Shown here piece after piece: positions 15,224 to 21,066 of a stretch of DNA of 37,547 bases. Origin of the DNA: Gammaproteobacteria bacterium (GTDB lineage: Bacteria > Pseudomonadota > Gammaproteobacteria > SZUA-152); the NCBI GenBank assembly GCA_021647505.1, contig JAKIUN010000036.1, positions 1-37,547 of the forward strand. The letters run 5' to 3'. The position numbers were made by a program, and so were the translations under genes. Numbering within the stretch: the stretch's first letter is position 1; each line of letters opens with the position of its first letter. Under the pieces are notes generated by a model that had not been told where the DNA came from, did not search any database, and worked only from the letters and a program-made list of their open reading frames with translations.

Positions 15224-18200
15224 CTACTCCACAAATGCAAAATGGACAATACGCGCCAACCCCTTGCGCGGCTCGACCCGTACCCACAAGGTGCCCCGAT
15301 AGACATCGACAGCGCCGTGCTTGTCGGTCTGTACCTCGACCACATAATCACTTTCGCCACGCGCGAAGCCGTCTTCCAGAATCCAATGTAAATTCTGTAA
15401 TTCCATGCGCCGTGCCACAGTACTATCGAACAAGCCTTGATAGTCCTTGCGAATACCCGTCGCCGTGGAACGATCATCGCTGGAAGCATCGCTGGAGAAC
15501 AGATCCATGAAGGCATTGATATCACCCGCCTCATAGTAAGCCACCAGCGCGGACATCAATGGATCCAGGTCTGCCTCCGACAGGGGAGGATTGCTGGCTG
15601 TCGGCTGACTCCCCTCAATGGTTTTCATATCCGAAAAGTACAAACGGGAAATCTGTAACCCAGCAGCTCCTTTCGTCACCTGCAGCGTCACTTTGCCCGA
15701 CGTCAAAACGGGAACCCCGGCCCCCGCAGACAAGATCGTCGCCTGAAATTTTCCACGGCCGCGCGCAAAGGTATCATCCCACTTCCAACTCAGATCGCTG
15801 AAAACCATATTGCGCTTATCTGTCGTGGTGAAGGTTTTTTCGTATTCTGTGCGAATACCCTCTCCCGTGGTTTGCGTATCCGTGCGCGCCTTGCTGTAAA
15901 ACAGGGACATGACCCCGTTCAGGTCCCCATTTTCGTAGTAAGCAAGAAACTGGCCCATCAGCTGCACCAGGTTCGGCTCGCTGATACCACTCGCGACCGC
16001 CACCTGGGGCGTCTTCGCCGCCACATTGGATCTGGCCTCAGACATGCTTTGAAGAACTGTGTTTCTCTCGCTGGCCACTCGTTCAGCGGCCGCTGCGGCA
16101 CGCGCATCAGCCTCGGCCTTCGTCCGTGCCTTGGCCTCGTTCATTGCCTGAATCCGGGCTTCTTCCTCAGCCCTAGCTCGGGCACGCGCCTCGGCAACAG
16201 CCCGAGCTTCAGCTGCGGCCTTTGCTTCCTCCTCCGCTTTTTTTCGCGTAATAGCTGCCTGCCGAGCGACTTCTTCCTGCCGAGCGATCTCTTCCCTTCG
16301 CACAGCCTCAGCGGCGGCCTGCGCCCTAGCCTCTTCCTCAGCCTGGACACCACTGGCCGACGTAGCAAATTGCTCATCGCCCAGCTCATTACCTCTCACC
16401 ACAGGAGAAACGGCGCCTTGCCAAGCATCGCTGGCTGCACCAGCAGACGTCGCCTCCGGCAATGCCACAGGCATGTCTTCATCTGTTGCCTGATTCTGCG
16501 AAAAGTCCCGCAAATTTCCCTCATCAACACGCCCCAATCCCGGCGCCACGGCAGACAACTGCCCCTCGGGCACAACTTGATGAGCAGGCTCGGCAGGTGC
16601 CGTGCTCACCGGCGTCTTACTGTCCTGGTCACGAATCTGTGTAACATAGAGAACCAGCAACACCACCACGAGGCAAGAAACAAGGATCACATGGCGAATA
16701 TGCACACCGGAATGCCCATCATCGATCTCGACGAAAGCGTCCCGTTGCATGGTGGCTGCCTGAGGCATAGAAATATTGACGGCATCCGGCACCTTCGGCG
16801 CCACATCCAAATCCAGATCACCGATGTTGTCGATGGCCTCGATATCACTCAGTACTGGATTCTCATTACTGGTTGCAGGTCTTTGCTCACCTCGGCACAA
16901 ATGTTCATAGGCCGAACCAATCCGACTGACGCCGCTATCGACGAGGTCAGTATTGTCATGGCGCAAGAGACGCATCAATAGGCCGTAATTGACTTCAATT
17001 TCGGTCAGCGAGGCGCCCTGCTGCAGACCCAGCACACGGTAATCATCGCTACCCGGAACAAACATCACACGCCGCACGAAGAAGCGCACGGCGGCGCGCA
17101 ACATGGCGGGAGAAATTCCCATCACGGAAATCTGCCGCAGATCCCGCAATACCTCGTCGTCGGAAACAGCCAACTGCAAGATATTTCGCACACCGCGGGG
17201 CAGCGGCTGACTCGAATCGTCCAAGCCCGGGAAACTGCGTGGAGAACGATGAAAGGCCAATACCAAACGCAAAATCTTGCGTGTCGTTACTTCGTCCGTA
17301 TCACCGGGCGCATCTGGTAATGGCGCCAGCACCACAGGTTGGCGTCTGTCCGTTTCTGTTCCACGACCACCAGGAATGACCCTGAAACGATCCTGCTGGG
17401 CAGATTTTGTCTCTTCGTCGCGCGGACTTTCAAGCGACCCGGCCTCTGCGGCAATCTCTGTAGACCCGCTTTCGCTCTCATCAAGATCGACCTGTGGTAC
17501 CGGCCGGGCCCAGCCATCATCGGGAACGGCACGATCCAGTGCACTGTCTTCAGGCACAGAGGCCTTGCCTCCATCAGTGGCGACGTGATCCGTTTCCGGT
17601 TCCATCAGCGACTTCTCGGCACTGGCCAGCTCAAACACATCGGCAGCTGGATCTGCTTCAGTGTTGGTAACTTCACGCACAGTTTTGGCAGGTTTCGACG
17701 GTTCTTCGGCCGCATGCCGGGCCTTTTCCCGCAAGGCAGCCGCTAGTTTTTCGCTGCTGTCGTGAAGCTCGTCAGGTCTCAAGACTTCTGCCTCCGTCTC
17801 AAAGGACTCTGCCGCTGCGTCCGTGACGGCCTCCTGTGTCCCCTTTTGCGGCACGACCTTTTGTGTGGCAGCTCGTGCGGCAGATTCTTCCACATCACGG
17901 CCCACATCGAACGAATCATCGTGCAACAGACTTTCCGCCGGCTTTTCGACGGACGGTGGCCGGCCCGAGATTTCCTGACCCAGTTCGTCAGTCACCTGAT
18001 GGAGAATGCTGTGATTTACCTCATGCTTCTCTTCCAGGAAACTGAACAACAACACCCGGTCACAGAGCATATTGATACGGCGGGGGATGCCCTCAGAATA
18101 TTCGTAAATAGCTTTGAAGGCCTGTTCGGTAAAACTGGGATCATCCTGCCAGCCAACCTGCCTGAGACGGCTCTCTACATAGCTGCGGCATTCATCGGGG

Positions 18201-18778
18201 GCAAGGGCACTGAGATGATAATTGGCAATCACCCGCTGGCGCAGCTGTTCAAGATCTGGGTGTTCCAGCTTCTGCCGAAACTGGGGTTGACCCAACAAGA
18301 AGGTTTGCAGCAGGGCTCTGTCGCCCACTTGCAGATTGGAGAGCATGCGTAGCTCTTCCAGGGAGCGGGCGGGCAGATTCTGCGCCTCATCAACCACCAG
18401 CAGGGCCCGTTTGCGCTCCCGCGCACGTGCCAACAGGAAGGCCTCCAAGGTCTTCAGCAGAGCCGCCTTGTCCATACCCTCATAGCGCAGGCCGAAGGAT
18501 GCTGAAACCATGCGCAGCATTTCGTCCGCTTCCAGCTGGGTAGTGGTGAGATGCGCAACAACCAGATGCTGCTGATTCATTTCTTTCAGCAGTATCTGCG
18601 CCAGGGTGGTCTTGCCGGTACCCGGATCACCAGTGATTACCACAAAACCTTCGCCCTGACTGAGCCCGTAGCGTAGATAAGCCAAGGCCCGCTTGTGGCC
18701 CCGACTGGGGTAAAAAAAGCCTGAATCGGGACTCAGGCGAAAAGGCTTGGCGCGCAGCTTGTAGAATGATTCATACAT
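15224..18778 (-). CDS. Multidomain AAA ATPase with J-like, coiled-coil and two NTF2-like domains
   Basis: 1184 residues. Residues 1-270 form an ExeA/GspA-like AAA ATPase, closest in motifs to the PEP-CTERM/XrtA-associated secretion ATPase (start MYESFYKLRAKPFRLSPD, Walker A GDPGTGKTT at 50-58, Walker B LLVVDEAQN at 126-134). A long acidic disordered region runs 271-500. Residues about 575-630 (DYRVLGLQQGASLTEIE to RIGSAYEHL) look like a DnaJ J-domain whose HPD is replaced by RHDN. One membrane segment lies at about 695-713. An Ala/Glu/Arg coiled coil spans about 812-907. Two related NTF2/SnoaL-like domains follow (933-1052 and 1067-1183), sharing AYYE-GD and FARG motifs. By topology the ATPase should be cytoplasmic and the coiled coil and NTF2-like domains periplasmic. 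Role unknown; a secretion or envelope/polysaccharide assembly function is a guess. It is divergent from galE. Confidence 0.85.
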   Translation of the reverse strand: MYESFYKLRAKPFRLSPDSGFFYPSRGHKRALAYLRYGLSQGEGFVVITGDPGTGKTTLAQILLKEMNQQHLVVAHLTTTQLEADEMLRMVSASFGLRYEGMDKAALLKTLEAFLLARARERKRALLVVDEAQNLPARSLEELRMLSNLQVGDRALLQTFLLGQPQFRQKLEHPDLEQLRQRVIANYHLSALAPDECRSYVESRLRQVGWQDDPSFTEQAFKAIYEYSEGIPRRINMLCDRVLLFSFLEEKHEVNHSILHQVTDELGQEISGRPPSVEKPAESLLHDDSFDVGRDVEESAARAATQKVVPQKGTQEAVTDAAAESFETEAEVLRPDELHDSSEKLAAALREKARHAAEEPSKPAKTVREVTNTEADPAADVFELASAEKSLMEPETDHVATDGGKASVPEDSALDRAVPDDGWARPVPQVDLDESESGSTEIAAEAGSLESPRDEETKSAQQDRFRVIPGGRGTETDRRQPVVLAPLPDAPGDTDEVTTRKILRLVLAFHRSPRSFPGLDDSSQPLPRGVRNILQLAVSDDEVLRDLRQISVMGISPAMLRAAVRFFVRRVMFVPGSDDYRVLGLQQGASLTEIEVNYGLLMRLLRHDNTDLVDSGVSRIGSAYEHLCRGEQRPATSNENPVLSDIEAIDNIGDLDLDVAPKVPDAVNISMPQAATMQRDAFVEIDDGHSGVHIRHVILVSCLVVVLLVLYVTQIRDQDSKTPVSTAPAEPAHQVVPEGQLSAVAPGLGRVDEGNLRDFSQNQATDEDMPVALPEATSAGAASDAWQGAVSPVVRGNELGDEQFATSASGVQAEEEARAQAAAEAVRREEIARQEEVARQAAITRKKAEEEAKAAAEARAVAEARARARAEEEARIQAMNEAKARTKAEADARAAAAAERVASERNTVLQSMSEARSNVAAKTPQVAVASGISEPNLVQLMGQFLAYYENGDLNGVMSLFYSKARTDTQTTGEGIRTEYEKTFTTTDKRNMVFSDLSWKWDDTFARGRGKFQATILSAGAGVPVLTSGKVTLQVTKGAAGLQISRLYFSDMKTIEGSQPTASNPPLSEADLDPLMSALVAYYEAGDINAFMDLFSSDASSDDRSTATGIRKDYQGLFDSTVARRMELQNLHWILEDGFARGESDYVVEVQTDKHGAVDVYRGTLWVRVEPRKGLARIVHFAFVE

Positions 18779-18899: not shown

Positions 18900-19040
18900 T
18901 GAACATTGACAATTTTACCACTTACCACAACTTTTTAAAGGAAATACTTCAGCTGCAACCTGTTATTTACGCGGGAAAATTACCACCCAGTCTACCGGCC
19001 AACTTGACCCAAGCTCCGTGATTGATTGTAAATCTTGGGT

Positions 19041-19106: not shown

Positions 19107-20117
19107 ATGGAAAACAAGAGGGCCGTGCTCGTCACCGGTGGCGCCGGCTATATCGGCAGCCACGTGGTCAGACAACTGGGCGAGGCCGGGGAACGGGTCG
19201 TCATCCTCGACAATCTTTCTACCGGTTTTAAAGATTCCGTCCTGCATGGTGATCTGGTGATCGGCGACACTGGCGACCAGGCCCTGGTCAGCCAATTACT
19301 GCGCGATTATGACGTCAGCTCGGTGCTACATTTCGCGGCCCACACCATTGTCCCCGAATCCGTCTCTAACCCGCTAAAATACTACGGAAACAACACCTGC
19401 AGCTCGCGCAACCTGCTGGCCTGTTGCGAACAGGCCGGTGTCGATCAGGTCATTTTTTCCTCAACCGCCGCAGTATACGGCATTCCCGAGACCGACATCG
19501 CCCGCGAGGATACGCCTACCGCACCCATCAATGCCTATGGCACGTCCAAACTAATGACCGAATGGATGTTGCGTGATCTCTCCCAAGCCTCCAGCCTCCG
19601 CCATGTCGCACTGCGCTACTTCAATGTCGCCGGTTCCGACCCGCAGACGCGCATTGGCCAATCCACCCGAAAAGCCACCCTGCTGATCAAGGTGGCCTGC
19701 GAGGCCGCCGTCGGTAAACGTGACAAAATCTGCATCTTCGGCACCGACTACCCGACCCCGGACGGCACCGGCATCCGCGACTACATCCACGTCGAAGACC
19801 TCGCCAGCGCCCACCTCAAGGCCCTCGACTACCTGCGTAAGGGCGGTGAGTCCACCACCCTGAACTGCGGCTACGGCCATGGCTACAGCGTGCGCGAGGT
19901 GCTGGATGCCGTGCAGCGTGTCAATGGCGAGCCGCTGAATATCGTCGAAGAACCGCGCCGCGCCGGTGATCCACCGCTGCTGGTGGCCGGCGTCGAACGC
20001 ATCCATGAAACCCTGGACTGGACGCCGCAGTACGACGACCTCGACTTCATCGTCAAGACTTCCCTGGACTGGGAGCATAAACTGCTTGAATTTGAAAAGA
20101 AAAAGACCGAAGCCTGA
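19107..20117 (+). CDS. galE: UDP-glucose 4-epimerase
   Basis: 336 residues, an extended short-chain dehydrogenase. The NAD-binding motif TGGAGYIGSHV is at 10-20. The catalytic pair is Tyr144 and Lys148 (YGTSK), and FSSTAAVYG holds the catalytic Ser/Thr. Later motifs GTGIRDYIHVEDLASAHLKA and LNCGYGHGYSVREV are those of GalE. It interconverts UDP-glucose and UDP-galactose for lipopolysaccharide or exopolysaccharide synthesis. It stands alone between the divergent ATPase gene and a REP hairpin. Confidence 0.95.
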   Translation: MENKRAVLVTGGAGYIGSHVVRQLGEAGERVVILDNLSTGFKDSVLHGDLVIGDTGDQALVSQLLRDYDVSSVLHFAAHTIVPESVSNPLKYYGNNTCSSRNLLACCEQAGVDQVIFSSTAAVYGIPETDIAREDTPTAPINAYGTSKLMTEWMLRDLSQASSLRHVALRYFNVAGSDPQTRIGQSTRKATLLIKVACEAAVGKRDKICIFGTDYPTPDGTGIRDYIHVEDLASAHLKALDYLRKGGESTTLNCGYGHGYSVREVLDAVQRVNGEPLNIVEEPRRAGDPPLLVAGVERIHETLDWTPQYDDLDFIVKTSLDWEHKLLEFEKKKTEA

Positions 20118-20283: not shown

Positions 20284-21066
20284 TTACGGCTCGTCCTTCA
20301 GAGTCTCAAGCAGGGCCTTTAGGTGTTTGATGGGAATGGCATAGGAAATACCGCTGGGTTTTTCCAACACGGTCTCCTTCGTTTCCTTGATAAACACCAT
20401 ATTCAGCACCCCGATCACTTCGCCCGTCTTGGGCAGAAACATGGGGCTGCCGCTGTTACCGGGATAGGCGGTGGCATCCAGCTGAAAGATATCAAAGGGA
20501 TCACGCAGGCGCTTGATCATGCTGACGCTCAGCTGCCGTCCGGATTGTGCCGGCAGTACGATCGGTGAAATCGCCGACACAATGCCACGGTGAGTCACCG
20601 GATACAGACCCAATACCGCACCAATCGGAAAACCCGTAAAAGCGATAGACTCACCCTCACGCACCCGGTCAGAATCCCCCAACTGCAGCATCGGCAACGA
20701 ACCACCCTCGATCTTCAGAACCGCCAGATCGTACTTCAGATCCATTGCCACCTGCCGTGCACGCCGACGTATCGAATGTTTGCCTCGCCCGGCAAATACG
20801 GCCAGATATTCCTTGTCTTCCACCGCCAACACCTCGGGCACCACGTGGGCATTGGTAACCACCAAGGTGCCATCACCAATAACGAAACCCGTACCCCGCA
20901 GCTTGGCGGGTGGCCGCCGCGTCGCCTGCATCGTGCCTACTGCAACCACGCCCGGGCGTACCAGGGCAATAGTTTCCGGCAAGCCAGCCTGCACCTGAAA
21001 AGCAGCAAGCAGCATGGGCGACAAAGCAACCAGCATGGCCACGCACCGCGAAAAGACCTTCCCCAT
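20284..21066 (-). CDS. Trypsin-like serine protease (DegP/S1C type, no PDZ)
   Basis: 260 residues with a signal peptide ending near AAFQVQA (about 27). The catalytic triad is visible as His74 (VTNAHVV), Asp113 (KYDLAVLKI) and Ser205 (PGNSGSP). The protein stops shortly after the protease domain, so it lacks the PDZ domains of DegP and DegS. It is probably a periplasmic protease or an inactive-state sensor of misfolded proteins. There is no GlyGly-CTERM tail, so it is not an obvious substrate of the nearby rhombosortase. Substrate unknown. Confidence 0.85.
   Translation of the reverse strand: MGKVFSRCVAMLVALSPMLLAAFQVQAGLPETIALVRPGVVAVGTMQATRRPPAKLRGTGFVIGDGTLVVTNAHVVPEVLAVEDKEYLAVFAGRGKHSIRRRARQVAMDLKYDLAVLKIEGGSLPMLQLGDSDRVREGESIAFTGFPIGAVLGLYPVTHRGIVSAISPIVLPAQSGRQLSVSMIKRLRDPFDIFQLDATAYPGNSGSPMFLPKTGEVIGVLNMVFIKETKETVLEKPSGISYAIPIKHLKALLETLKDEP

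Follow-up and report, generated by a model that had tools for sequence, protein, structure and literature searches.

The gene at positions 15224 to 18778 of the window (the whole stretch of 37,547 nucleotides that was analysed, taken from a gammaproteobacterial genome) encodes a single protein in which an AAA ATPase of the XrtA/PEP-CTERM type is joined to a J-like module, a membrane helix, a stalk and two NTF2-like domains. The explanation that we favor, with a probability of roughly 55%, is that an ATPase displaced from the XrtA cluster and a bitopic polysaccharide-export protein were fused once, and that the product would work in an ExeA-like manner on its periplasmic head. Taken together, the evidence suggests that both halves, the XrtA-cluster ATPase and the J-like/TM/stalk/NTF2 protein, belong to exopolysaccharide (EPS) export.

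Domain layout of the fused protein

The reading frame starts with an ATG at position 18778 and contains no internal stop, and the plus strand across the same positions carries 11 stops. The features of the gene and its vicinity are the following.

15224..18778, minus strand: whole fused gene, 1184 aa (ORF; full length conserved among relatives)
17972..18778, minus strand: residues 1-269, XrtA/PEP-CTERM-type AAA ATPase, TIGR03015 (profile match; ATPase tree)
18608..18631, minus strand: Walker A, GDPGTGKT, residues 50-57
18380..18403, minus strand: Walker B, LLVVDEAQ, residues 126-133
17288..17971, minus strand: residues 270-497, acidic linker of low conservation
17057..17287, minus strand: residues 498-574, conserved helical N-domain, N-terminal to the J-like domain in all relatives
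16874..17056, minus strand: residues 575-635, J-like domain lacking the HPD motif
16634..16690, minus strand: residues 697-715, single predicted membrane helix (hydropathy)
16001..16345, minus strand: residues 812-926, Ala-rich charged coil, TolA-like, predicted periplasmic stalk
15617..16000, minus strand: residues 927-1054, NTF2-like domain 1
15227..15601, minus strand: residues 1060-1184, NTF2-like domain 2
18912..18939, minus strand: sigma70-like promoter, TTTAAA-16-TAAAAT, with TG before the -10 (consensus match only)
19107..20117, plus strand: galE, divergent neighbour, retained next to the fused gene in most of the family's genera

The domain order and the fusion itself, both proposed in the initial annotation, were confirmed by profiles, hydropathy, folds and relatives with the same order. 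The assignment of the N-terminal ~270 residues to the ATPase of PEP-CTERM loci also held, as the TIGR03015 profile matches residues 1-269 with 372 bits, above the NCBIfam cut-off of 324.5. Both Walker motifs are intact, the domain and the stand-alone ATPase from the XrtA cluster in genome G044 share about 65% identity, and the likeness to TIGR03015 proteins is completed by a genome that encodes XrtA and an EPS cluster. However, stand-alone ATPases of this type have about 300-450 residues (290-455 for most over-cut-off genes in 369 genomes of the class), whereas the fused protein carries more than 900 additional ones, and its gene lies outside the XrtA cluster, not in the slot after TIGR03016. 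Another fusion of an XrtA-slot ATPase was observed in G084, where it is joined to the neighbouring WecB-type epimerase in a protein of 734 residues (L175:4905-7109).

The linker that follows the ATPase (residues 270-497) has a net charge of -28 and 23% Asp/Glu, yields no Pfam match, and its identity between genera is 22-32%. The J-like domain scores 16.2 bits with the Pfam DnaJ profile, below the cut-off of 27.8; a family profile of this domain, one member of which has an intact J domain, matches J domains in the PDB. An AlphaFold2 model of residues 486-644, built from the window sequence plus sequences of related loci, is helical (pLDDT 78), and its second half resembles solved J domains with Foldseek probabilities of 0.99-1.00 and E-values of only 0.1-1, structural re-comparison giving Z of about 5-7. 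The HPD position reads LLRHDN and the motif is gone in all fused forms, which is why the domain is termed J-like here. Thus, the J fold is shared with J-domain proteins, and several unfused relatives pass the Pfam DnaJ cut-off and three retain HPD, but the fused forms lack the motif needed for DnaK stimulation. Given this loss, the role of an active J co-chaperone was rejected, and a docking adaptor is more likely than a DnaK activator.

A second linker separates the J-like domain from the hydrophobic helix, which is found between the J-like and NTF2 parts in nearly every relative. The coil at residues 812-926 is rich in Ala, Glu, Lys and Arg; the TolA profile matches this region only, with 27.6 bits against a cut-off of 59.45. 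Hydropathy predicts a cytoplasmic N-terminal half, with the stalk and the NTF2 heads in the periplasm, and the proposed link between cytoplasmic ATP use and a periplasmic rod would fit this anatomy.

The tandem C-terminus falls below the Pfam gathering scores of SnoaL_2 and SnoaL_4 (21.6 against 27 and 19.1 against 24 bits, respectively), and Pfam finds no peptidoglycan-binding domain in residues 716-1184. Its AlphaFold2 model (pLDDT 86; the orientation of the pair is unsure, pTM 0.53) matches NTF2-like proteins with Foldseek E-values down to 1e-12 and Z of 15-18, including tandem NTF2 enzymes and the periplasmic cell-wall proteins Csd6 and Bd1075. What is shared with Csd6 (4xzz), Bd1075 (7o21) and the VirB8-like OrfG (8s7l), all of them envelope proteins, is the NTF2-like fold; identity, however, is about 6-10%, and the fused protein has neither peptidase nor T4SS parts. 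A protein of ~560 residues with two such domains and no ATPase lies beside TssK/TssM-like T6SS genes at another locus (L058:4321-6012).

As for the vicinity of the gene, control by PrsR/sigma54 was considered and discarded, there being no sigma54 site upstream and, over the window, 12 loose matches where 9 would be expected. A short gene for an HtrA/DegP-type trypsin-like protease is located nearby (20284-21066), and relatives of this protease also lie near the fused gene in G002, G008 and G016.

Conservation and origin of the fusion

Sister species encode proteins with the same order (about 80-85% identity), as do other genera of the family, which comprises deep-sea vent Gammaproteobacteria and conserves the fused order; two other families (f53 and f75) have it with one NTF2 domain. 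Because such proteins recur in sister species and across the family, neither chance nor misassembly can account for the gene. The possibility that the frame was an assembly fusion of two genes, raised in the initial annotation, is likewise excluded, as is a chance ORF, by the same order in many genomes and by purifying selection. Indeed, this selection acts on every folded domain: pairwise dN/dS with genus members is 0.03-0.05 for the ATPase, 0.04-0.05 for the N-domain plus J-like domain, 0.20-0.25 and 0.10-0.12 for the first and second NTF2-like domains, and 0.15-0.53 for the linkers. The value for the N-domain and J-like domain implies that the latter, despite the loss of HPD, is not decaying.

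An ATPase tree that was given an ExeA-like root places the 15 fused rows in a single clade (93/91), which spans this family, f53 and f75 and is nested in stand-alone ATPases, including those of XrtA slots. Since this clade is single but its support is not starred, a single origin is favored without being proven, and repeated independent fusion is disfavored. The tree of the MID and NTF2 regions groups this family with f75 (99/98), and leaves f53 unplaced, not joining the others. The simplest reading, although not a proven one, is that of one old fusion. The same ATPase tree places a set of ATPase-NTF2 paralogues in a separate clade (93/88), and these were rejected as members of the same family given their own clade and their different partners. 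They belong to a conserved three-gene set (L023:4315-10246, L021:8981-15195, L176:552-6382, L177:4644-10685, L178:1260-7255 and L180:4399-10680), consisting of an ATPase-NTF2 protein of 700-850 residues without the J-like module, a secreted protein of ~205 residues with a weak match to outer-membrane barrels, and an Ig-like lipoprotein of ~1000 residues.

It might be argued that the fusion is an ordinary one, the halves having been joined because they share a role in EPS production, with a linker that permits them to work independently and no mechanical coupling. The length and poor conservation of the acidic linker would agree with this, as would the one different fusion of this kind of ATPase, that to its WecB neighbour. 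However, the fused form has been kept in three families, as one clade, while the halves stay separate in other genomes, and this explanation appears quite improbable.

XrtA clusters and polysaccharide-export loci

The label of a secretion-type (T2SS) ATPase, initially given to the protein, has to be abandoned: the ATPase is of the XrtA/PEP-CTERM-cluster type, and the XrtA cluster of its own genome lacks it in the usual slot. In this genome, exosortase A is encoded on one contig (C35), and another (C24) carries the genes for the TIGR03027 export protein, the TIGR03007 chain-length protein, the TIGR03018 tyrosine kinase, TIGR03016, the TIGR03006 deacetylase and PrsT (TIGR02917); the components of the system all score over their cut-offs (TIGR03109, 03016, 03018, 03007, 03027, 03006, 03088 and 02917). 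No ATPase separates TIGR03016 from the deacetylase in this cluster. The ATPase gene is displaced (DISPLACEMENT) from the XrtA cluster. The slot is empty in 7/7 readable clusters of the family (G000, G006, G008, G010, G013, G016 and G018), which may correspond to a single loss because the members of the family share ancestry, and an ATPase gene follows TIGR03016 in 7/7 outside genomes (G033, G038, G044, G084, G298, G343 and G348). Across the 24 genomes of the order, all 19 over-cut-off TIGR03015 matches are the fused gene. The genome under study also has a second polysaccharide cluster of the Wza/Wzz/kinase kind with rml-like sugar genes (L165, G000:C80).

The early observation that only galE adjoins the gene, with no exosortase or glycan cluster, is correct for the window but not for the genome, which has its XrtA cluster on other contigs. 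Neither does the isolation from glycan genes hold evolutionarily. Eight genomes from sister genera have, with the fused gene at its head, a YjbH/OPX/Wzz cluster that lies directly downstream and in most cases on the same strand, with the order: small secreted protein, YjbH/GfcD barrel (PF06082), Poly_export-SLBB-GfcC protein and Wzz, followed in some by an APS kinase; galE is divergent upstream, as in the window. We know of no ATPase/J/NTF2 protein of this type in the E. coli GfcABCD/YjbEFGH operons. The YjbH and Poly_export-SLBB-GfcC genes make the sister-genera cluster similar to GfcABCD/YjbEFGH and class 2 OPX export, this class being that of the Poly_export-SLBB-GfcC protein (PMC9603273). 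In the genus of the window, no export gene adjoins the fused gene and YjbH genes were not found anywhere, and no EPS genes adjoin the fused genes of families f53 and f75 (G097, G224, G075 and G317).

The J-TM-NTF2 half is also found as a protein lacking the ATPase, and in most other families examined it adjoins Wza/Wzc or YjbH/OPX genes. Its gene comes directly after those for Wza and the Wzc kinase in G338, G123, G307, G201 and G090, follows the Wzc kinase gene in G038, and heads a YjbH cluster of the same type in G097 and G224; one genome from a different class encodes a short N-domain plus J protein after a Wzc kinase. Thus, the inspection of homologue neighbourhoods for EPS genes, suggested in the initial annotation, revealed a conserved linkage to Wza/OPX export genes in the sister genera and the unfused relatives, with none adjacent in the window. 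Other architectures were met among the unfused relatives: one carries the helical and J-like module twice in tandem (L145:9417-11966), and a stand-alone, apparently secreted NTF2-like protein is encoded two genes downstream of the J-TM-NTF2 gene at Wza/Wzc loci (L139:13270-13797, L141:13098-13628).

The location of unfused relatives directly after the Wzc tyrosine kinase could speak for a regulatory sensor, whose NTF2 heads would bind a periplasmic glycan or lipid-linked intermediate and signal inward to the ATPase and J-like parts, tuning a Wzc-type kinase or a polymerase. In the same direction would point the common binding of small ligands among NTF2-like folds and the one unfused relative in which a response-regulator receiver domain separates the J domain from the membrane helix (L139:9145-11673). 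However, a pure sensor would not need the Walker motifs, which are fully retained, and we consider this role unlikely.

Either XrtA/PrsK or YjbH/OPX is present in 18/19 genomes with the fused gene, the exception being G005, which is 74% complete. Genome G011 has the fused gene with YjbH/OPX only, lacking any XrtA or PrsK match over cut-off, so the fused protein is not tied to XrtA alone; as the genus of the window has the XrtA system only, the tie is to EPS export generally, not to the exosortase. This bears on the idea that the fused protein serves PEP-CTERM sorting, delivering or anchoring exosortase substrates through NTF2 heads that would bind substrate proteins in the periplasm. Such a role would agree with an ATPase family linked to XrtA by the TIGR03015 name and by its slot in XrtA clusters, and with the presence of PrsK in most genomes carrying the fused gene. 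Against it stand G011 itself and the unfused halves, which lie in Wza/Wzc/Wzy and YjbH loci with no exosortase gene nearby, making the idea rather doubtful.

Possible mode of action and significance

Among known systems, the general plan of the fused protein recalls that of ExeA/GspA, which combines an AAA ATPase, a single membrane helix and a periplasmic peptidoglycan (cell-wall)-binding domain and promotes the assembly of the ExeD secretin (PMC4098917); in the fused protein, the periplasmic location of the NTF2 heads is predicted. However, the fused protein has NTF2-like heads in place of a peptidoglycan-binding domain, adds a J-like module and a TolA-like stalk, and its gene context is polysaccharide export rather than T2SS. 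The shared ATPase superfamily and plan (PMC4098917) could make it an assembly factor of T2SS or pili, of the ExeA/MshM kind, but neither T2SS genes (ExeB included) nor pilus genes lie near the fused gene in the window or in any genome read, the peptidoglycan-binding domain is missing, and the genome has a separate MshM-type ATPase in its MSHA pilus locus (L036). Its MshM-like, DamX-like and transposon-type relatives are all separate proteins, and this alternative was rejected as very improbable.

DamX consists of an AAA domain, a membrane helix and a periplasmic SPOR head, with no J-like module, and its ATPase is distant from that of the fused protein (26% identity). What we take to be the DamX-like relative in the same genome (L003) adjoins aroK/aroB.

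By analogy, a mechanism can be put forward for the favored reading, that of a displaced XrtA ATPase fused to an export protein. In the cytoplasm, the ATPase would drive oligomerisation, assembly or remodelling, with the J-like domain as a docking adaptor, and the ATP-driven change would act on the periplasmic NTF2 heads. Stalk and heads may contact the export channel or the glycan, and the heads could have a part in how the outer-membrane channel for polysaccharide export is assembled, anchored or gated through the cell wall, following the logic by which ExeA promotes ExeD assembly. The partner, like the mechanism, is inferred. A more tentative extension is that the XrtA ATPase is normally complexed with a separate J-like/TM/NTF2 protein, and that the single polypeptide of this lineage carries ATP-driven movement through the inner membrane to the export channel. 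To our knowledge, no energy transducer of this kind has been described for any Wza/OPX exporter.

Pfam and NCBIfam name only parts of the protein, which as a whole would be annotated as an XrtA ATPase. In agreement with the early statement that no described protein has this full order, there is no named full-length family, and no paper on one was found in the open-licence literature; within the same literature, searches combining NTF2, DnaJ and exopolysaccharide, or J-domain and polysaccharide export, returned nothing relevant, and the papers found contain no description of the role of the XrtA/PEP-CTERM-cluster ATPase. Membrane proteins with a helical domain, a J-like domain, a TM helix and NTF2 domains emerge as a family of their own that has no name yet, encoded at Wza/Wzc and YjbH/OPX loci in several gammaproteobacterial families. 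A natural fusion kept for so long points to this J-TM-NTF2 protein as the probable partner of the XrtA ATPase and to the polysaccharide export complex as its probable place, and its function therefore becomes testable. The fusion suggests that this poorly understood ATPase may act across the membrane during sugar export.
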